The notes below the pieces were generated by a model. That model saw nothing but the letters and a program-made list of their open reading frames with translations, did not search any database and had not been told where the DNA came from. A program made the position numbers and the translations under genes. A DNA stretch of 24,336 bases from a virus: positions 1 to 24,336 of the IMG/VR virus record IMGVR_UViG_3300044966_000310; one strand, written 5' to 3'. This document shows, one piece after another, positions 4,858-24,336 of this stretch; the first letter of the stretch is position 1; each line of letters begins with the position of its first letter.

Positions 4858-5091
4858 TTAAAGAAGTGGCATTCTAGATTCTTTAGTCATTTCAATATTT
4901 TCATTAATTACATTATACATCACTAAACGATCTTCATACCCTAAGATGTAGAGGAGGTCGTTTATACTAACTCCTCCTCTCATATACCAACTTAGTTTAA
5001 ATAACTCATGTTTAAATTGTTTACTTTCGTTGTCAAGCCTAATTAGGTATGTTTCGACTTCTTTTCTCGATAACCCAATTAGGCGGGAGCG
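4858..5091 (-). CDS. 51: gp51-like domain without a start codon (-1 frameshift product of gp26)
   Basis: This 77-codon frame lies directly downstream of the gp26-like gene, in the -1 frame relative to it. It contains the pattern WYMRGGVSINDLLYILGYED and ends ESRMPLL, which I recognise from the small protein encoded after gp26 in T4-like phages (T4 gp51 position, baseplate hub assembly). No ATG, GTG or TTG occurs before the conserved part; the first in-frame ATG is inside it. The frame is open back through the T6 run near the gp26 stop. The simplest reading is a gp26-gp51 fusion of about 349 residues made by -1 slippage at 5097-5091. An ATT start at 5079-5077 is the main alternative. The frame stops at 4858-4860, abutting the convergent gene. 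Confidence 0.75.
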   Translation of the reverse strand, partial: RSRLIGLSRKEVETYLIRLDNESKQFKHELFKLSWYMRGGVSINDLLYILGYEDRLVMYNVINENIEMTKESRMPLL

Positions 5092-5097
5092 AAAAAA
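5037..5097 (-). promoter_or_regulatory. Programmed -1 frameshift site: slippery heptamer plus downstream stem
   Basis: Read on the minus strand, gp26 codons TCT TTT TTC contain the heptamer T TTT TTC (5097-5091), which fits the X XXY YYZ rule. Six bases later GCCTAATT (5084-5077) can pair perfectly with AATTAGGC (5044-5037), an 8-bp stem at normal stimulator distance. A short CCC/GGG pairing (5087-5085 with 5076-5074) could add a pseudoknot. The gp26 stop (5081-5079) lies between. Confidence 0.7.
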
Positions 5098-5906
5098 GAT
5101 GATTGATCTAAATCAATTGATAATTTAGATTCATATTTACAATTAGCACCACTACAAACGACATCAACTTCTGGAATTTTCCAAATGTCTTTATTTTTAT
5201 TAAACTGAGTGCGCAGTTCATTGATTATATCTCTATCACAATTTTCAATCCATTCGCGAATGAAATGCGATTCTGTTACTACTGCAGTTCCGGTATCAAT
5301 TGACTCAATGCTTGCTGAATAAATTTCAGTTTGTAATACACCTAGTTCTATAAACAATTGGCTTACTGTTGATTTATGATCATCAGCATCACTATCTGAT
5401 GCAGCCAATCGTTGTTGTAGTTTAAAATTTACTAATGAAAAATTAGTTGATTGCTTATAAGTTAAAGGTTGCAACTTAATAATTAATCCATGAGTTTCGA
5501 CTGTATTTTCAAAGTTGCAAGTTGCAAAATGATCAATTACTGTTCCTAAATCAACGTCATAATCATTTTGTGATCCGCACTGCGGGCATCTGTGTGTAAT
5601 TTCTAACACATTACCAAATGTTGCAATTCGAATTGCAACTAATAACAAATCTGTATCTAACGAAGTAACTTCCCAACCGTCTTTAATTCCTGGACAGCAA
5701 CTTTCAAATAATTTAGCAGTACTTTCTCCAGCTAGTAATGCATCAGGAGTTTTCATTAGAATTTCATCCATACCTGTCATACTATAAATTGATAAATGAG
5801 TAGGGTCACCACTAATTGACCCTAATTTATTATAAATTCCTTTTGACGGTAATGGAATGTAAATTTTTGGTTGTCTATAAAATTGTTGTAAAGGGTTATT
5901 TGCCAT
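5079..5906 (-). CDS. 26: T4 gp26-like baseplate/tail assembly protein
   Basis: A 275-residue member of the T4 gp26 baseplate family (T4 gp26 has about 208 residues). It shows the family layout: a YIPLPSKG segment near residue 15-23, the central DTDLLLVAIRIATFGN helix, then CPQCG (C107, C110) and a second cysteine pair (C251, C256) that together suggest a zinc ribbon. In T4, gp26 and gp51 act in assembly of the baseplate hub. The start has GGAG eight bases upstream. A perfect minus-strand TATAAATA (5938-5945) is 32 bases before the ATG. The last codons carry a slippery site that should fuse a fraction of the product to the gp51-like domain, as in the gpG/gpGT tail chaperones of lambda; the adjacent probable tape measure gene supports that analogy. 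Confidence 0.8.
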   Translation of the reverse strand: MANNPLQQFYRQPKIYIPLPSKGIYNKLGSISGDPTHLSIYSMTGMDEILMKTPDALLAGESTAKLFESCCPGIKDGWEVTSLDTDLLLVAIRIATFGNVLEITHRCPQCGSQNDYDVDLGTVIDHFATCNFENTVETHGLIIKLQPLTYKQSTNFSLVNFKLQQRLAASDSDADDHKSTVSQLFIELGVLQTEIYSASIESIDTGTAVVTESHFIREWIENCDRDIINELRTQFNKNKDIWKIPEVDVVCSGANCKYESKLSIDLDQSSFFAPA

Positions 5907-5970: not shown

Positions 5971-8900
5971 ATGAGTGATAGCGATAGCGATAAACTTGGT
6001 GAAATTAGAGATTTATTAAAAAAACAAGTTAGCATGTTGGGCGGCGGCGGTGGCCGAGGAAGCTATGGCGGCGACGCTGCACCAACGCGAGGCGCCGGCG
6101 GAGGTAGTGGATTTGGCGGAGCTGCAGAATCTGCTAATAAATTAACTGGCGGGTTAGACGCATTATGGCGAGGTACTATTAATGTGTCAACTGGATTTGA
6201 CACGTTAACTACTGCACTTGGTAACTCAACTGGTACTCTTGGCAAAGCATTTACTGACATGTCAAACAAAATAGGTCATACGATACTAGATACTAATGAC
6301 CAATTAAACATATCTGCCAAATATGGTGCTAATCACAATAATAACTTATCAGAATACGATAAGTTAATTAAAGGCGCACGGATGACGCATGAAGAATACA
6401 ACGACATGCTTAAGAAAGGCGCCGAAGAGATGCGAGGGCTAGGTTCAAACATAAATTTAGCTCAGAAAAATCTATTATTAATGTCTAAAGAGGTACAAGA
6501 AGGTAAAGTTGGATCTAGTTTAAGAGAAATTGGTTTAGGTGCCAACGATCTTAACGAAGTATTACAAGGTGCAATGACTAATCGCCGCGGTATGGACATG
6601 TCAGACCCTGCTGCTAAAAAAGCAGCCATCGAATCAGCTGAAAGAATGACAGTTGCTATGGAAGAAACTGCCCGAATTACAGGTGAAAGCAGAAAAGACC
6701 AAGTTGAAGAATTAAAAAAGAAATCTGAAGATGCTCGTGTCCAAATGAAGCTGTCAATGATGGACAAACAAGCTAAAGAACGATACGAAGCAGGTATGCA
6801 GCAAATGCATCAACTAGGACCTGCAGCTGAAAAACTATATAGAGATCAATTCCTAGGAAAAATTACAAAAGACGGATCAAATGCTATCGCAGCACTTGGT
6901 ACATCAGCAGCCGACATTAGTCGTTATGCATTAGCTCAAAAAGATGGATCAGAAGAAGGCATGGCTCGTGCTAAAGAGCTTGGTAAGACTGCAGTTGCAA
7001 GTAATGTTGAATGGCAAAACAGTACCGGTGCTAAAAACTTTGGTATATACGGCGAAGGCGCTGCTGCAGACATGGTTGGTGAATCGTGGACTAAAAATAA
7101 AGTCCGTGAGCCAATAAATGCTAAAATTGATGAAGTAAAAAATCAAACAGGTCAAACAATTGATGCTGCTACTGCTATGGAACAAATGAAAGATGTTGTT
7201 CATAACAGTATGCAACAAAAAAATGCAGACGGAACCCCAAATACTGACCCAGGAACAGCAACTGCAATTACAATTAATAAAGGAAATCGCGCGATTTCTG
7301 ATTTAACTGCTGGCGCATCGATTGGTTTTGGAAAACTTAATGACAAATTAGGTGAATCAATCCAACAATTAGGCGGTTTTAACGAAGCATTAAAACCACG
7401 TACACAAGAAGAAGCTAGTCCACTTGTTAAACTTCAAGAAGCTGCGGATTTTGTATCTCCTAAAGGTCTTAGAGATGCATTTAATGAAAGTAGAGCCGAT
7501 CAAACCCATGAAAAAACAACTCCTGATGCAATGGGTGCAGATGTAAAACGAGTGCATCGTAAAGACGGGTCTCCATCGTTTGATAATTTCCTCAATGGCG
7601 GCAGCTTTAGCAGCATGTTTGAACAATTTGATCCAGCTGGTACTCCTGCAGAACTACACGGTGAAGAAGCAGTAGTTACACGGAAACAAATGGAATCGTT
7701 ATTTACAAAAATAACTCCATTACTGTCATCGGTAGCACAACCTACTCAAAAAACTGCAGAGTTGCCGGCGATACCGCCAGTTGACTTAAAAAATGAATCT
7801 AAAACTCCAGATCAAAAATCCTCAGTTACTGATGCTACTACTGTTGCAACAGAGACTGCAAGTAAAGTCCTTTCTCAGTCGTTAAATGTTGCATCTGAAC
7901 GAATAAAAGACTTAACTGCTGCATTACATGATTTTAAACCGTTAGATCATGTAAACAAAGTTGTTGAAAAGGTTACTGCAGCTCAAAAACCAATAACTTC
8001 ACCTGCACCTGCACCTGCACCTGCTACAACACCTGTAGTTGCACCAGCAGTGTCATCAAATCCTGAACTTAGGAAAATTGCCGATCAAATTAATTCTGAC
8101 AAGGCTAAAGAAGAGAAAAAAGAACAAAAACCAGCAGAAATTAAAAAAGAAGAACCTAAACTACTTAATCTAGGTATTAAAACTGCTGAAGATTTAAATA
8201 AGTTTATTTTTGGTGGCGCAACTCCACCAAAAGACCAATCTGCACTTGACAAAGAAAAAGCAAAAGAAGAAGGACAGACTGCTAAATCGCAATTTCAAGC
8301 AGATCCCGGTAATATTGCAAAACAATTGCAATCTAAATTTGCTGAGATTATGCCAAACCCGTTTGACAAAATAAATGTTCCTAAAATCGATGAATCTCAA
8401 ATTGCAGCAGCATTGTCACAAAAACAACCAATGGATAAACACATTGATGAACTTAGTAAATCAGTTTCAAGCTCGATTGCAAATAAATCTCCAATAAAAC
8501 ATGAAGAACCTAAAAAATCAACTACAGTTGAGCAAAAACCTAAAGCACCAGATGTATCAAGTTTAGATGCAAGTCTTTTAAACTTAGCAAAATTTAATAA
8601 AGCGTTAACTTCTGGTGATATTTCTAAAATTGGCATGTCTCAAATGGATCTTAGCGACTCAGGAAAATCAGCTGAATCAAAATTAGGTCCAACTACTGCT
8701 AGAGTTGAACTACAAAAGAAAAGAGAAGCATTAGAAAATGCATCATTTGATTTTGAACAAATGAAAGCAGCTAATACTAAGCCTTCTGCAGAAGCTGCTG
8801 AACGATTAGCTAAGAAAAAAGAAGAAGTTTCTAAATTAGCAGTGTCATATGAAGAAGATTTAATTAAAACAAAAGGTAAATTAAAATTACATGCTAATGA

Positions 8901-9804
8901 AGAAGTTAAACATGCAGAAATAAAAAATAAACACAATGAAGTTGAAAAATCACAGCAAGTTGCAAAAGCATTAGCTGATGAAAAGAAGTTTATGAAAGAA
9001 CACGGGCCAGAAGCTAACGATAAAGCTAAAGCCCAATTAAAAACCGATGCTGATAAAACTGTTGATAACTTTAATGCTACTAACTTTAAATTATACGATG
9101 AAGATGAAGCAAGTGTACGTAAAAGACAAGAAGAACAAGCAGAATCAAAAGATAAATCTCCTGGAATATTTGATAGTATTTCAAATTTATTTACAAGTAG
9201 CAGCAAACCGGCATTTGCAAGTGGTAATGTAAAATACGAAGAAATTCCTCAAGCAGAAATTGATGCTAAGAATAAACGTATGCAAGAATCGATTGGTAAA
9301 GTTGATAATAGTTCAGAAGCAATTGCAGCACAACAAGCAGAGCTTAATAGACAGAAATACTCTGGTATGTATAAACAACCAGAAACTAAAATTAACGATG
9401 TTAAAAAGCCTGCAGAAACTAAAGAAGATGCGCATGTTAAAGAAATGTACAAAAAATACGGTCTTGAAACATTTAAAGATTACAATTCTAGAGTATCGGC
9501 CGAAGTAAAAGATTCTCATGCACAAATTAAGAATATTTCAAGCAACAAGAAAGATTTTACTGCTGCTGATGTTGCCCCTAAACCTATAGATAAGCCTAAA
9601 CCGGTAGAACAACAACCACCTGCACCAGTTGCACAACCACCAATGCATGTTGTTGAAAAGGAAATAACATTAAAAGATATTCACGAAACCTTAATAAAGT
9701 TAAATAAAACAATGGCTGAAGTTGCACACCACTCTGAACAAACTGTTAAAGTTGGTCATAAGCAAGTTAGCGAAACTAAAAAAAGCTCTGGTAGCAGATG
9801 GTAA
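5971..9804 (+). CDS. Probable tail tape measure protein
   Basis: A 1277-residue, mostly hydrophilic and helical protein. Order: a Gly-rich N-terminus (residues about 24-55), helical segments to about 520, a GTPAELHGEEAVV motif near 556-570 like that near the C-terminal part of many tape measure proteins, then a long region rich in Lys, Glu, Ala, Pro and Gln with Pro-Ala runs (around 670-690) and predicted coiled coil, ending in a basic Ser-rich tail. Size, composition and position beside the gp26/gp51 assembly genes and just before the portal gene support a tape measure; T4 gp29 (590 residues) would be the functional equivalent. Start chosen from AGGA 11 bases upstream. Alternative: another large internal virion or tail protein. 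The minus-strand open frames inside are shadows. Confidence 0.6.
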   Translation: MSDSDSDKLGEIRDLLKKQVSMLGGGGGRGSYGGDAAPTRGAGGGSGFGGAAESANKLTGGLDALWRGTINVSTGFDTLTTALGNSTGTLGKAFTDMSNKIGHTILDTNDQLNISAKYGANHNNNLSEYDKLIKGARMTHEEYNDMLKKGAEEMRGLGSNINLAQKNLLLMSKEVQEGKVGSSLREIGLGANDLNEVLQGAMTNRRGMDMSDPAAKKAAIESAERMTVAMEETARITGESRKDQVEELKKKSEDARVQMKLSMMDKQAKERYEAGMQQMHQLGPAAEKLYRDQFLGKITKDGSNAIAALGTSAADISRYALAQKDGSEEGMARAKELGKTAVASNVEWQNSTGAKNFGIYGEGAAADMVGESWTKNKVREPINAKIDEVKNQTGQTIDAATAMEQMKDVVHNSMQQKNADGTPNTDPGTATAITINKGNRAISDLTAGASIGFGKLNDKLGESIQQLGGFNEALKPRTQEEASPLVKLQEAADFVSPKGLRDAFNESRADQTHEKTTPDAMGADVKRVHRKDGSPSFDNFLNGGSFSSMFEQFDPAGTPAELHGEEAVVTRKQMESLFTKITPLLSSVAQPTQKTAELPAIPPVDLKNESKTPDQKSSVTDATTVATETASKVLSQSLNVASERIKDLTAALHDFKPLDHVNKVVEKVTAAQKPITSPAPAPAPATTPVVAPAVSSNPELRKIADQINSDKAKEEKKEQKPAEIKKEEPKLLNLGIKTAEDLNKFIFGGATPPKDQSALDKEKAKEEGQTAKSQFQADPGNIAKQLQSKFAEIMPNPFDKINVPKIDESQIAAALSQKQPMDKHIDELSKSVSSSIANKSPIKHEEPKKSTTVEQKPKAPDVSSLDASLLNLAKFNKALTSGDISKIGMSQMDLSDSGKSAESKLGPTTARVELQKKREALENASFDFEQMKAANTKPSAEAAERLAKKKEEVSKLAVSYEEDLIKTKGKLKLHANEEVKHAEIKNKHNEVEKSQQVAKALADEKKFMKEHGPEANDKAKAQLKTDADKTVDNFNATNFKLYDEDEASVRKRQEEQAESKDKSPGIFDSISNLFTSSSKPAFASGNVKYEEIPQAEIDAKNKRMQESIGKVDNSSEAIAAQQAELNRQKYSGMYKQPETKINDVKKPAETKEDAHVKEMYKKYGLETFKDYNSRVSAEVKDSHAQIKNISSNKKDFTAADVAPKPIDKPKPVEQQPPAPVAQPPMHVVEKEITLKDIHETLIKLNKTMAEVAHHSEQTVKVGHKQVSETKKSSGSRW

Positions 9805-19901: not shown

Positions 19902-22900
19902 ATGGCTGTTGGGCATATTTCAGGACCACTTTTAACTGCAAACTTGTTGAGGAATGGCAGGGATCTAGCATTTGAAACTGATCTATTATTCTTAAACGTG
20001 TCTGATCCTGACCCTCTAAATTTTAAAGTTGGTATTGGTACTAGTTCACCTGCATATTTACTAGACATTAACGGCACTAGTAGATCAACTAACATTAAAA
20101 GTACTGAAGTTGATATTGGCAATATTAATATTAAACTTAATACAATTAAATCTAGTGTTGGCAATTTAACACTTCAAGCTGCAACCAATACTGATAACAT
20201 AATAATTTCATCAAAAGTAGAAAGTCAGTATCTAGTAACCTTATCGGGCGAAATTGCAGTTAATACTGCTACAAATAATCAATCATATACTACTACAGGT
20301 ACTGGTGTTATTACAATTGCATCCGGCACAACTGGCTCTATTAACAACATAACGATTGGTAATACTACTCCGTCGACTGGTAATTTTACAGTAGTAACAG
20401 TAGGTGCTAGTGCAAATACCACTAGGTTTCCAAATGCAAAACTTATAATTTCAGATACTGCTACTAGTATTCAACAGAACGAAATTGGTAATATTGGTAT
20501 TATTGCCGAAGCTGTAGGTGCGGGTGCAACTAGAAACGCAGGTGTGTATGGTGTCGGTTATACTGCCGGTGCGTTTACTGGTCAAGGGGTTGTTGGTGAA
20601 TCTCATGTATCAGCAGCAGATGACACTGCGCCAGCAGTTGGTGTACGCGGTTATGCAAATGACATTCGTACTGTAGGAAATAACGTTGGCTTATACGGTG
20701 ATGCATCTAGTGGTATTGCTAACTATTCGTTGTATTTAAACAGTGGGGATATCTATACTGCCGGTGCTAAAACGTGGTACTTAACTGGTAATTTAACATT
20801 TAATGGTGCCTACAGTATTACTATACCTACACTTGCATTAACAAATGCATTGCCTGTTACTTCAGGTGGTACCGGAGTTACAACATCGACCGGTACTACT
20901 AATGCAGTATTATCAAATACTCCAACGTTAGTTACACCAGTATTAGGTGATGCAACTGCTACTACAATTAACAAAGTTACAATAACACAGCCAAGTGCTA
21001 GTGCAACATTAACTATCTCAAATTCTAAAACGTTAACAGTTAACAACTCTGTAACATTTACCGGTACTGACAATTCTACATTAACTTACGGAACAGGCGG
21101 CACTGTTGCATATACAGAAAATAAATTAAGTGCATTTGCAGCTACAACATCAGCTGAACTAGCAGGTAATATCACTGATGAAACAGGTACTGGATCATTA
21201 GTTTTTGCAAATACCCCAACGTTAGTTACACCGGTATTAGGTGATGCAACTGCTACTACAATTAACAAAGTTACTATTTCGCAACCTTCAACCGGTGCAA
21301 CGTTAACAATTGCCGATGGAAAAACTTTTACTGTTAGCAATAAATTAACATTTACTGGTACTGATAATTCTTCAGCTTCATTTGGAACAGGCGGTACTGT
21401 TGCATATACAGAAAATAAATTAAGTGCATTTGCAGCTACAACATCAGCTGAACTAGCAGATAATATCACTGATGAAACAGGTACTGGATCATTAGTTTTT
21501 GCAAATACCCCAACGTTAGTTACACCAGTATTAGGAGTTGCAGCTGCAACTAGTATTAACAAATTAACTATTACTGCACCGACTACTAGTTCAACATTAA
21601 CTGTAGTTGACGGATCGTCGTTGATTACAAGTGGTGCGCATTCGTTAACATTAACTACTACTGCTGATACAAATGTTACGTTTCCCACAACTGGCACATT
21701 AGTTAACTCAGATGTTCAAACATTATCGTCATTATCTAGTGTTGGCACAATTACAACAGGTACATGGTCAGGGTTATTTGGCTCAGTATCAGGTGCAAAT
21801 TTAACAAATTTAACTGCAGGAAATTTAACTGGAACTATTCCATCTACTGTACTAGGTAATTCTTCAATATATATTGGGACTACTCAAATAAATCTTAATA
21901 GAGCATCCGGTAGTTTAACACTAGCTGATGTAAATTTTGGTACTACTGATGTAACGACTTCGTTTACTATTCCAAATGGTAATACAGTTTCGAGACCAAG
22001 TACTCCTGCTGCAGGTAACATAAGATATAATACAGATACTACTAATTATGAAGGTTATAACGGCACTGATTGGAGTAAAATGGGGTCAGGATTAACACCT
22101 ACTCCTGTAAAAACAGCTTCATATACTGCAACAGAAGCACAACTAGTTAGATGTGATTCAACTGCAAGTTCATTTAGTGTGTTCTTGCCGTCATCACCTG
22201 TTGATGGAAATGTAGTTGGAATTATTGACATTGCTACAGCTGGATCATTTTATTTGCATCCAGTTTCTGTAGTACCTTCTGCAGGAAATACGATTGAAGG
22301 CGCATCAGATTTAGTTATGTTAGATATTAATAATGCATACATTACATTTGTTTATGTGTCGTCAACAAACAATTGGAAAATGCAAGAAACACCAAACATG
22401 TTGTCTGATTATACATTACAAGTTGCAAGTACAACTGTAGCCGGTGCTGTTAAAGTAGACGGTACTACTATTGTTATTAATAACCAGGGTGTAATTAGTG
22501 CTATAGGTGGCGGAGGCGGAGGCGGAAGTACATTACTTTCAGTAATCGGCTCTGCACCTATTATTTCTAGTGGTGGTACTACTCCTACTATTAGTATTTC
22601 ACAAGCAACTGCATCTACTGACGGATACTTAAGCCTTACTGATTGGAATACGTTTAATAATAAATTAAGTTCAATTCCGATAGCATCTGCGTATGCATTA
22701 GGCGGTATTAAAATAGGAACAGGTTTAACTATTGACGGATCAGGTACTGTAAATGTTACAGGATCAGTGCTACCTGCAGCAACAACTGAAGTAATAGGTG
22801 GTATTATAGTTGGTTCTGGATTATCAATTGATATTGATGGAATATTAAGCACTTCTGACTTTGTAACTAGTGTATCAGGAACATCACCAATTACTGTATC

Positions 22901-24336
22901 ATCGGGTTCAAGCCCAACAGTAAGTATTGCAAAAGCAACTAGTTCAGTTAACGGTTATTTAAGTTCAACTGATTGGACTACGTTTAATAATAAGTTAAGT
23001 GCAGTACCAATGGCGTCTGCTAGTGTGTTAGGCGGAATTAAAATAGGACCTGGATTATCAATTGATAACTCTGGAATAGTTACTGCATCGTCATCATATT
23101 CTTTGCCAATTGCAACTGCTATTTCTATAGGAGGTGTTAAAGTTGACGGCACTTCGATTATGATTGATAGTGCCGGAACAATTAGTGCATCCATGACGTA
23201 TGCAATGCCGGTTGCTACTACTGAAATGGTAGGCGGCGTGATGATAGGCACTGGTCTTGCAATTGACTCTAATGGGTTTTTAGTAGCAACTGGTAATGCA
23301 GTAGTTACATCTCTGTCAAATATAGCAGGTGGTGATACTAATAGAATTCCGTACCAAACTTCTACAGATACTACCGGATTTATTGTCGCTGCAACTAATG
23401 GATATTTACGGTTCAATGGATCTACCTTTTCATGGGAGTTGACTGGTACTGTTACAAGTGTATCTGCGTTATCTATTACTACATCAGGCACTGATATAAC
23501 ATCAAGTGTTGCAACAGGAACAACTACGCCTGTTATTACTTTAAATATTCCAACTGCTAGTGCGACTAACAGAGGTGCATTAAGTAGTACTGATTGGAAT
23601 GCGTTTAATTCAAAAGCATCAACTGCAGTTGCTTCTACTATTTTAAATGGCCTAATGAGTTCAGGTGATAAAACAAAACTTGATGGAATTGCTACTGGTG
23701 CTACTGCTAATACAGGTACAGTTACTGGTGTATCTGCATTGACTATCGGAACAGCAGGTACTGATATTGTATCAACTGTTACAACGGGAACAACTACACC
23801 AGTTATTACTTTAAACATTCCAACTGCTAGTGCAACTAACAGAGGTGCGTTAAGTAGTGCCGATTGGTCTACATTTAACGGAAAACAAGCTGCACTGAGT
23901 ACAGCAAGTGCAATTGTTAGTGGTATTTTAAGTAGTACTGATTGGTCTATATTCAATAATAAAGCATCAACTTTAGTTGCTACTACAACTGAAAACGGAT
24001 TAATGAGTTCAGGTGATAAAACAAAACTTAACGGAGTTGCATCTGGTGCTACTGCTAATACAGGTACAGTTACTGGTGTATCTGCATTGACTATCGGAAC
24101 AGCAGGTACTGATATTGCATCAACTGTTGCAACTGGAACAACTACACCAGTTATTACTTTAAACATTCCAACTGCTAGTGCAACTAACAGAGGTGCGTTA
24201 AGTAGTGCCGATTGGTCTACATTTAACGGAAAACAGGCTGCACTGAGTACGGCAAGTGCAAGCGTTAGTGGTATTTTAAGTAGTACTGATTGGACTACGT
24301 TTAATGGAAAAGCATCAACAACAACTGCTACTACTT
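19902..24336 (+). CDS. Giant repetitive tail fibre protein (3' end beyond the window)
   Basis: An open frame of at least 1478 codons runs from an ATG with AAGGAG upstream to the window edge without a stop. It starts MAVGHISGPLLTANLLRNG, with a VGIGTSSPAYLLDINGT segment near residue 47, a motif typical of phage fibre N-terminal regions. Next come two to three 98-residue repeats (about 340-545), a second GNIRYNTDTTNYEGYNGTDW motif near 705-722, a Gly8 linker near 870, then repeats of GYLSxTDWxTFNNKLS with LGGIKIGxGL (about 905-1060), and MSSGDKTKLDGIATGATANT blocks (about 1250-1400). All are known fibre motifs. Expected role: trimeric receptor-binding fibre. The C-terminal tip, and any chaperone domain, is outside the window. 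Long minus-strand frames here are shadows. Confidence 0.88.
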   Translation, partial: MAVGHISGPLLTANLLRNGRDLAFETDLLFLNVSDPDPLNFKVGIGTSSPAYLLDINGTSRSTNIKSTEVDIGNINIKLNTIKSSVGNLTLQAATNTDNIIISSKVESQYLVTLSGEIAVNTATNNQSYTTTGTGVITIASGTTGSINNITIGNTTPSTGNFTVVTVGASANTTRFPNAKLIISDTATSIQQNEIGNIGIIAEAVGAGATRNAGVYGVGYTAGAFTGQGVVGESHVSAADDTAPAVGVRGYANDIRTVGNNVGLYGDASSGIANYSLYLNSGDIYTAGAKTWYLTGNLTFNGAYSITIPTLALTNALPVTSGGTGVTTSTGTTNAVLSNTPTLVTPVLGDATATTINKVTITQPSASATLTISNSKTLTVNNSVTFTGTDNSTLTYGTGGTVAYTENKLSAFAATTSAELAGNITDETGTGSLVFANTPTLVTPVLGDATATTINKVTISQPSTGATLTIADGKTFTVSNKLTFTGTDNSSASFGTGGTVAYTENKLSAFAATTSAELADNITDETGTGSLVFANTPTLVTPVLGVAAATSINKLTITAPTTSSTLTVVDGSSLITSGAHSLTLTTTADTNVTFPTTGTLVNSDVQTLSSLSSVGTITTGTWSGLFGSVSGANLTNLTAGNLTGTIPSTVLGNSSIYIGTTQINLNRASGSLTLADVNFGTTDVTTSFTIPNGNTVSRPSTPAAGNIRYNTDTTNYEGYNGTDWSKMGSGLTPTPVKTASYTATEAQLVRCDSTASSFSVFLPSSPVDGNVVGIIDIATAGSFYLHPVSVVPSAGNTIEGASDLVMLDINNAYITFVYVSSTNNWKMQETPNMLSDYTLQVASTTVAGAVKVDGTTIVINNQGVISAIGGGGGGGSTLLSVIGSAPIISSGGTTPTISISQATASTDGYLSLTDWNTFNNKLSSIPIASAYALGGIKIGTGLTIDGSGTVNVTGSVLPAATTEVIGGIIVGSGLSIDIDGILSTSDFVTSVSGTSPITVSSGSSPTVSIAKATSSVNGYLSSTDWTTFNNKLSAVPMASASVLGGIKIGPGLSIDNSGIVTASSSYSLPIATAISIGGVKVDGTSIMIDSAGTISASMTYAMPVATTEMVGGVMIGTGLAIDSNGFLVATGNAVVTSLSNIAGGDTNRIPYQTSTDTTGFIVAATNGYLRFNGSTFSWELTGTVTSVSALSITTSGTDITSSVATGTTTPVITLNIPTASATNRGALSSTDWNAFNSKASTAVASTILNGLMSSGDKTKLDGIATGATANTGTVTGVSALTIGTAGTDIVSTVTTGTTTPVITLNIPTASATNRGALSSADWSTFNGKQAALSTASAIVSGILSSTDWSIFNNKASTLVATTTENGLMSSGDKTKLNGVASGATANTGTVTGVSALTIGTAGTDIASTVATGTTTPVITLNIPTASATNRGALSSADWSTFNGKQAALSTASASVSGILSSTDWTTFNGKASTTTATT
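20922..21535 (+). repeat. 294-bp in-frame tandem repeat in the fibre gene
   Basis: The sequence CCAACGTTAGTTACACC begins at 20922, 21216 and 21510, exactly 294 bp (98 codons) apart. A long block from about 21117 is nearly identical to that from 21411 (one visible change, GGT to GAT, in AELAGN/AELADN). The third unit diverges soon after 21535. The near-identity of the copies suggests recent duplication or gene conversion. Confidence 0.9.
23460..24336 (+). repeat. Second fibre repeat array, units of 270 and 348 bp
   Basis: GTATCTGC within TVTGVSAL-type segments occurs at 23460, 23730 and 24078, spacing 270 then 348 bp. The longer unit has an extra 78 bp (26 codons) that repeats the SSTDWS module. 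Blocks such as AACATTCCAACTGCTAGTGC recur. The array continues to the window edge. Confidence 0.85.

Follow-up and report, generated by a model that had tools for sequence, protein, structure and literature searches.

A minus-strand gene in DNA from an uncultured virus very probably encodes two forms of a PF12322-family tail assembly chaperone, a 275-residue short form and a 349-residue long form that would arise by a −1 ribosomal frameshift, like G and GT of phage lambda. We put the probability of this reading at about 0.9. The analysed stretch of DNA, referred to as the window, comprises 24,336 nt and corresponds to positions 1 to 24,336 of the IMG/VR virus record IMGVR_UViG_3300044966_000310. 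The group to which the window belongs is uncultured and stands closest to the jumbo phages. Its gp26 protein shares about 30% identity with those of the closest isolates.

In the proposed mechanism, most ribosomes would terminate at the stop codon at 5081–5079 and release the short form (TAC-N). A minority would pause at a 12-bp RNA stem, and the two tRNAs on TTT TTC would slip one base back to TTT TTT. Translation would then continue in the −1 frame and yield the long form (TAC-NC). As in the lambda gpG/gpGT system, the tape measure protein would be coated by a mixture of many short and few long copies, and the extension would serve to recruit tail tube subunits. The frameshifting itself, its rate and the chaperone role are what we infer. 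A preliminary description of this DNA had also read the locus as a programmed −1 frameshift, and the conservation of the site, the covarying stem and the lack of usable starts support that reading. The features of the locus are listed in Table 1.

Table 1. Features of the chaperone locus in window coordinates.
Feature	Position	Strand	Basis
gp26-like tail assembly chaperone, short form (TAC-N)	5079..5906	−	PF12322, phrog_150, AlphaFold2 model
Slippery heptamer T TTT TTC (zero-frame codons TTT TTC)	5091..5097	−	Sequence and presence in relatives
6-nt spacer, heptamer to stem	5085..5090	−	Sequence and fold; spacing constant across the 35-sequence alignment
5′ arm of 12-bp RNA stem, GCCUAAUUGGGU	5073..5084	−	MFE, covariation
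3′ arm of 12-bp RNA stem, ACCUAAUUAGGC	5037..5048	−	MFE, covariation
−1 frame C-terminal extension (TAC-C), 77 codons, CGC 5091 to 4861, stop 4860–4858	4858..5091	−	Open frame without a start
Divergent neighbour, 1277 residues, candidate tape measure protein	5971..9804	+	Position, homologues; presumed identity

The short form and its family

The zero frame, read from the sequence, runs on the minus strand from ATG at 5906 to TAA at 5081–5079 and encodes 275 residues. In profile searches, residues 60–272 match PF12322 (T4_baseplate) with an E-value of 8.5e-14 and a score of 52.2 bits, which exceeds the curated cut-off of 24.5 bits for this family. The protein also matches phrog_150, 'baseplate hub', with an E-value of 7e-15.

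The AlphaFold2 model of the short form has a pLDDT of 90. In a fold search, the model resembles other viral proteins named baseplate hub, including that of phage SP-15. A Foldseek search of the model against the PDB returned no match with an E-value under 0.1, and a profile search against the sequences of solved structures gave weak, unrelated matches only. HK97 gp13 (2ob9) can be superimposed on the model with a Z score of 5.2 and an rmsd of 5.2 over 86 of 107 residues, values that fall within the background of unrelated entries.

The weaker fold matches include uncharacterised proteins of 380–690 residues from the large Ralstonia and Erwinia phages phiRSL1, RP12, RSF1 and phiEaH2. As judged from the modelled fold, these proteins may hide a chaperone of the PF12322 family.

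The slippery heptamer and the −1 frame

The gp26-like gene ends with the codons TCA TCT TTT TTC GCT CCC GCC TAA. The heptamer T TTT TTC at 5097–5091 is in the correct phase for a −1 slip and is followed by three sense codons and the TAA stop. In about 7,585 codons of window genes, T TTT TTC occurs in phase a single time, at the slip site.

The −1 frame stays open from 5112 until it terminates at 4860–4858. It contains no ATG, GTG or TTG before the ATG inside the WYMRGG motif. The preliminary description had placed the heptamer at the same bases, in a gp26 frame ending TCT TTT TTC, and had called the frame at 4858–5091 start-less before WYMRGG; both statements hold on re-reading of the sequence. 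The long form predicted after a −1 slip has 349 residues (272 + 77).

Conservation of the heptamer and the −1 frame

A scan of IMG/VR with the window gp26 protein yielded 76 relatives, and the gp26 stop could be located in 74 of them. All 74 window-type loci contain T TTT TTC in phase near the gp26 stop and an open −1 frame, which extends for 79–83 codons counted from the heptamer. A further scan, in which a cyanophage gp26 served as query, yielded 80 loci, 79 of which cover the gene stop. The in-phase heptamer with an open −1 frame is present in 79/79 of these cyanophage-type loci; the frame runs for 62–70 codons to a stop in 75 loci and is open to the contig edge in four.

The heptamer and an open −1 frame are also found in the isolates Phosso, Atu_ph07, PAC2, XaC1, RaK2, 121Q, GAP32, CBB, Vibrio 2.275.O, SCTP-2, XbC2, Hallingskeid, Munch, S-RIM50, KVP40, S13 and Milchi. 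The slip site reads T TTT TTT or T TTT TTG in XacN1, RAS14 and RL38J1. Relatives with a normal start codon and no slippery run, the counter-case named in the preliminary description, were not found, and the heptamer occurs in all relatives. A mistake in sequencing, or a chance frameshift that splits a decayed gene, would account for the broken frame and for nothing beyond it. This explanation is refuted by the conservation, since the same arrangement recurs in all 74 window-type loci, all 79 cyanophage-type loci and sequenced isolates, and its probability is practically nil.

Codon usage at the slip site is fixed. The two FF codons are TTT TTC in 52/52 distinct window-type genes and in 64/64 distinct cyanophage-type genes, and the share of TTT among Phe codons elsewhere in the same genes is 0.85 and 0.76, respectively. 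The codon before TTT TTC always ends in T, though it encodes N, S, D or A. Probabilities calculated from codon choice count related genes as independent and therefore overstate the significance; the fixation itself is the evidence.

Starts for the −1 frame are scarce. No ATG, GTG or TTG precedes the MRG motif in 26 of 45 distinct window-type relatives, and a start with a Shine–Dalgarno-like sequence is found in 0/45. These counts bear on an alternative in which the C-terminal domain is a separate small protein, made after the gp26 stop by translational coupling or from a non-AUG start such as an AUU near 5079. The annotation of T4 gene 26 includes an internal product, 26′, which starts at AUU, an in-frame ATG lies over the gp26 stop in Phosso and Atu_ph07, and the C-terminal part is often an ORF of its own in public records. 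Yet separate initiation leaves unexplained the fixed T TTT TTC, the synonymous constraint and the covarying stem at slip-site spacing. In addition, conservation of the −1 frame begins at FF, ahead of any start, and the T4 long form is a single polypeptide. Most window-type relatives lack a start and none has a Shine–Dalgarno-like sequence, so we rejected separate initiation of the C-terminal domain as very unlikely and favour −1 frameshifting at the heptamer.

In Phosso (3834) and Atu_ph07 (around 3828), where the −1-frame ATG overlapping the gp26 stop is present besides the heptamer, a separate C-domain protein could additionally arise. In phage CBA120 (around 3328), a C-domain-like peptide follows gp26 in the −1 frame without a canonical heptamer (GAG ATT TTC ATT TAA).

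The RNA stem

Six bases past the heptamer, bases 5084–5073 pair with bases 5048–5037 to form a stem of 12 bp with one G·U pair. The stem has a minimum free energy of −20.2 kcal/mol and a z score of −4.8 relative to dinucleotide shuffles. The preliminary description had given an 8-bp stem at this distance; that stem is real, but it is the first part of the 12-bp helix.

Among 35 distinct window-type sequences, which were chosen for a shared stem position and give a gap-free alignment across heptamer, spacer and stem, standard pairs occupy 92% of the cells of the 12-bp helix. In all 35 sequences, the nine pairs closest to the slip site are intact, and two-sided, compensatory changes occur at five pairs. 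The covariation score is 0.317, compared with 0.184 ± 0.015 for shuffles; with the partner arm slid along the sequence, the score does not exceed 0.089. RNAalifold independently recovers the same helix from the alignment, with ten pairs. Conservation of the heptamer and stem in relatives, with compensatory changes, had been proposed as a check in the preliminary description and is borne out.

The stem is absent in some other relatives (loci L057, L061, L062, L066, L067 and L071), and a subgroup (L063, L065, L069 and L078) contains a different, longer stem in the same place. Among isolates, the structure is strong in Atu_ph07, XacN1 and Milchi and weak in others, including several jumbo isolates. 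The Atu_ph07 stem is long, encloses an inner hairpin and lies 6 nt past the heptamer; its z score of −6.7 is the strongest among isolates. The cyanophage loci have a mean z score near −2, and no shared helix was seen in the folds inspected. In the window clade, selection seems to act on the stem as an RNA structure; across the family, the stem is variable. We regard the 12-bp stem as a putative frameshift stimulator, and downstream structure as a common feature of the family that does not define it.

The stem also bears on RNA polymerase slippage on the T6 run, which would generate a mixed mRNA population. The site is indeed a run of six T, and the run is lost in T4-type genes along with the need for it. 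However, efficient transcriptional slippage usually requires longer runs, and the codon phase, the final C and the stem would all be unnecessary for it, yet all are conserved. Slippage by the polymerase is exceedingly unlikely, and slippage by the ribosome is the preferred explanation.

Neighbouring gene and genomic setting

The plus-strand gene at 5971–9804 has a divergently adjacent homologue in 49 related loci, with 20–36% identity. At the corresponding place, RaK2 has a gene whose annotation notes similarity to a tape measure protein. Profile searches with the product of the window gene gave no match to a tape-measure family, and because no family model recognises the product, we only infer that it is a tape measure protein. 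The preliminary description called the next gene the probable tape measure. An adjacent candidate does exist, but it is a divergent plus-strand gene and does not lie downstream as it does in lambda.

The chaperone pair of SP-15, LIS04, Streptomyces phages and KVP40 is flanked on one side by the tail tube gene and on the other by a long gene of tape-measure or tape-measure-like type. An annotated tape measure gene directly follows the pair in SP-15 and LIS04, and the layout in SP-15, LIS04 and the Streptomyces phages is that of lambda G–GT–H. The Konradin record annotates both proteins as tape measure protein assembly chaperones.

The frameshift could be real and the protein a structural part of the hub rather than a chaperone of the tape measure protein. 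The family is named 'baseplate hub' in databases, and a review (PMC3004832) cites genetic work that assigns T4 gp26 to the hub. However, the same review tabulates both gp26 and gp51 as hub assembly chaperones and reports gp51 to be missing from the finished particle (PMC3004832). The gene order in SP-15, LIS04, Streptomyces phages and KVP40 and the names in the Konradin record also argue against a structural role, which we consider unlikely; a chaperone that acts on the tape measure protein is the favoured assignment.

Elsewhere in the window, two adjacent, overlapping minus-strand genes at 969–1970 and 1957–2733 both match endonuclease VII/HNH families and are possibly a duplicated pair. Tandem repeats of 294 and 348 bp are present at 20914–21601 and 23580–24334, both within a long fibre-like frame that continues past the end of the window.

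Relationship to T4 gp26 and gp51

T4 gp26 (208 residues) and gp51 (249 residues) match PF12322 in profile searches with E-values of 9e-64 and 4e-52, respectively. Residues 147–246 of gp51 match phrog_634, 'baseplate hub assembly catalyst'. Because gp51 combines a PF12322 match with a C-terminal phrog_634 match, its sequence identifies it as a gp26-like domain followed by a C-terminal extension, that is, a long form encoded by one gene. T4 gene 26 (locus L092, 7803–8429, minus strand) ends with GLKEFFELL, in which FF is kept as TTC TTT and the heptamer is lost. In records that may be incomplete, PF12322 is present in one copy in each of six window-type records (79–223 kb) and two cyanophage records, and in two copies in a T4-type record. 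T4 encodes the short and long forms in two paralogous genes, and the window phage would make both from one frameshifting gene. The earlier idea that T4 gp26 and gp51 can work as a frameshift pair is supported in this sense, with the correction that gp51 corresponds to the whole fusion product and possesses its own gp26-like domain.

A −1-frame extension lies behind T TTT TTC in cyanophages, KVP40, S13 and Milchi. The cyanophage −1 peptides align with the C-terminus of T4 gp51 with an HHalign probability of 89–91 and an E-value of 1–2e-6. The −1 peptide of the window has no match to phrog_634 in a profile search, and HHalign comparison of the window extension with the cyanophage/T4 gp51 C-terminus gives a probability of about 4 and an E-value of 0.01, which is not significant. 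Homology of the window C-terminal domain to T4 gp51 is not demonstrable by sequence, even with jumbo isolates added. The label 'gp51-like' in the preliminary description is justified for the cyanophage version, which is homologous to T4 gp51. For the window version the label is less certain and refers to its position, the shared FF anchor and the general pattern.

Many genomes misreport the chaperone protein, because in the public records looked at the C-terminal part is annotated as its own or a truncated ORF, or not at all. This also explains why 'gp51' of cyanophages had seemed to amount to only about 20% of its T4 counterpart (PMC3037559).

A proposed common FF site in related phages

Six phages of Gram-positive hosts, SP-15, LIS04, GXN1, BRock, GiJojo and LuckySocke, have the C-terminal domain in the +1 frame, again at the FF/LF position. 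The sites in these phages read TTT TTT C/A, TTC TTT C and CTG TTT C. A +1 slip at TTT followed by C or A is probable in all six; in SP-15, a −2 slip is a possible way to the same frame. These observations suggest one homologous FF site at which the long form is made by a −1 slip (window phage, jumbo phages, cyanophages and KVP40), by a probable +1 slip, or through duplication with loss of the heptamer, a proposal for which we see about even odds. If it is true, the recoding signal switched direction and was replaced by duplication, while the protein remained unchanged.

Comparison with known systems

As far as the citing papers convey, the idea of frameshifting in T4-like phages is already published in outline. 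The study in question reportedly names T4 genes 26 and 51 and describes conserved frameshifting in several T4-like groups. According to a 2016 review, long-tailed phages widely share the G–T frameshift, 'except T4' (PMC5009743). Vladimirov, Gautam and Davidson (2022, Virology 566:9–15) found, as cited in the PRFect paper (PMC10885494), that some T4-like phages have two genes for the short and long forms, and, as cited in PMC12846349, poly-T slippery sequences in the TAC-N genes of T4-like phages. Our literature search for gp26, gp51 and frameshifting together found no direct report. As represented in the citing papers, the 2022 resolution of the T4 exception agrees with our data, which extend the evidence to the uncultured group and to jumbo phages. 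What is added here is the evidence for the uncultured, jumbo-related group and the covarying stem.

The T4-like TAC-N/TAC-NC genes, so far as they are described in the citing papers, appear to belong to the same protein family as the window gene and to encode a short and a long chaperone. Relative to that description, the window group adds a 12-bp stem that covaries and a neighbouring gene that is divergent. T4 gp26 and gp51 and the window protein are all PF12322 members, and gp51 corresponds to the long form. However, T4 employs two genes on opposite strands without a heptamer, whereas the window contains one gene with a heptamer.

The two lambda forms are synthesised in a ratio of about 30:1; the short one attaches to the tape measure protein, and tube subunits are bound by the extension (PMC5009743). 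By analogy, lambda gpG/gpGT and the window gene would share a short form, a minority −1 product made at a heptamer near the end of the first frame, and a proposed role with the tape measure protein. The lambda system differs in using another heptamer and a smaller protein, for which no similarity to the window protein was detected. Moreover, the lambda G–T unit immediately precedes the tape measure gene, with both on one strand, whereas in the window the tape measure candidate is divergent.
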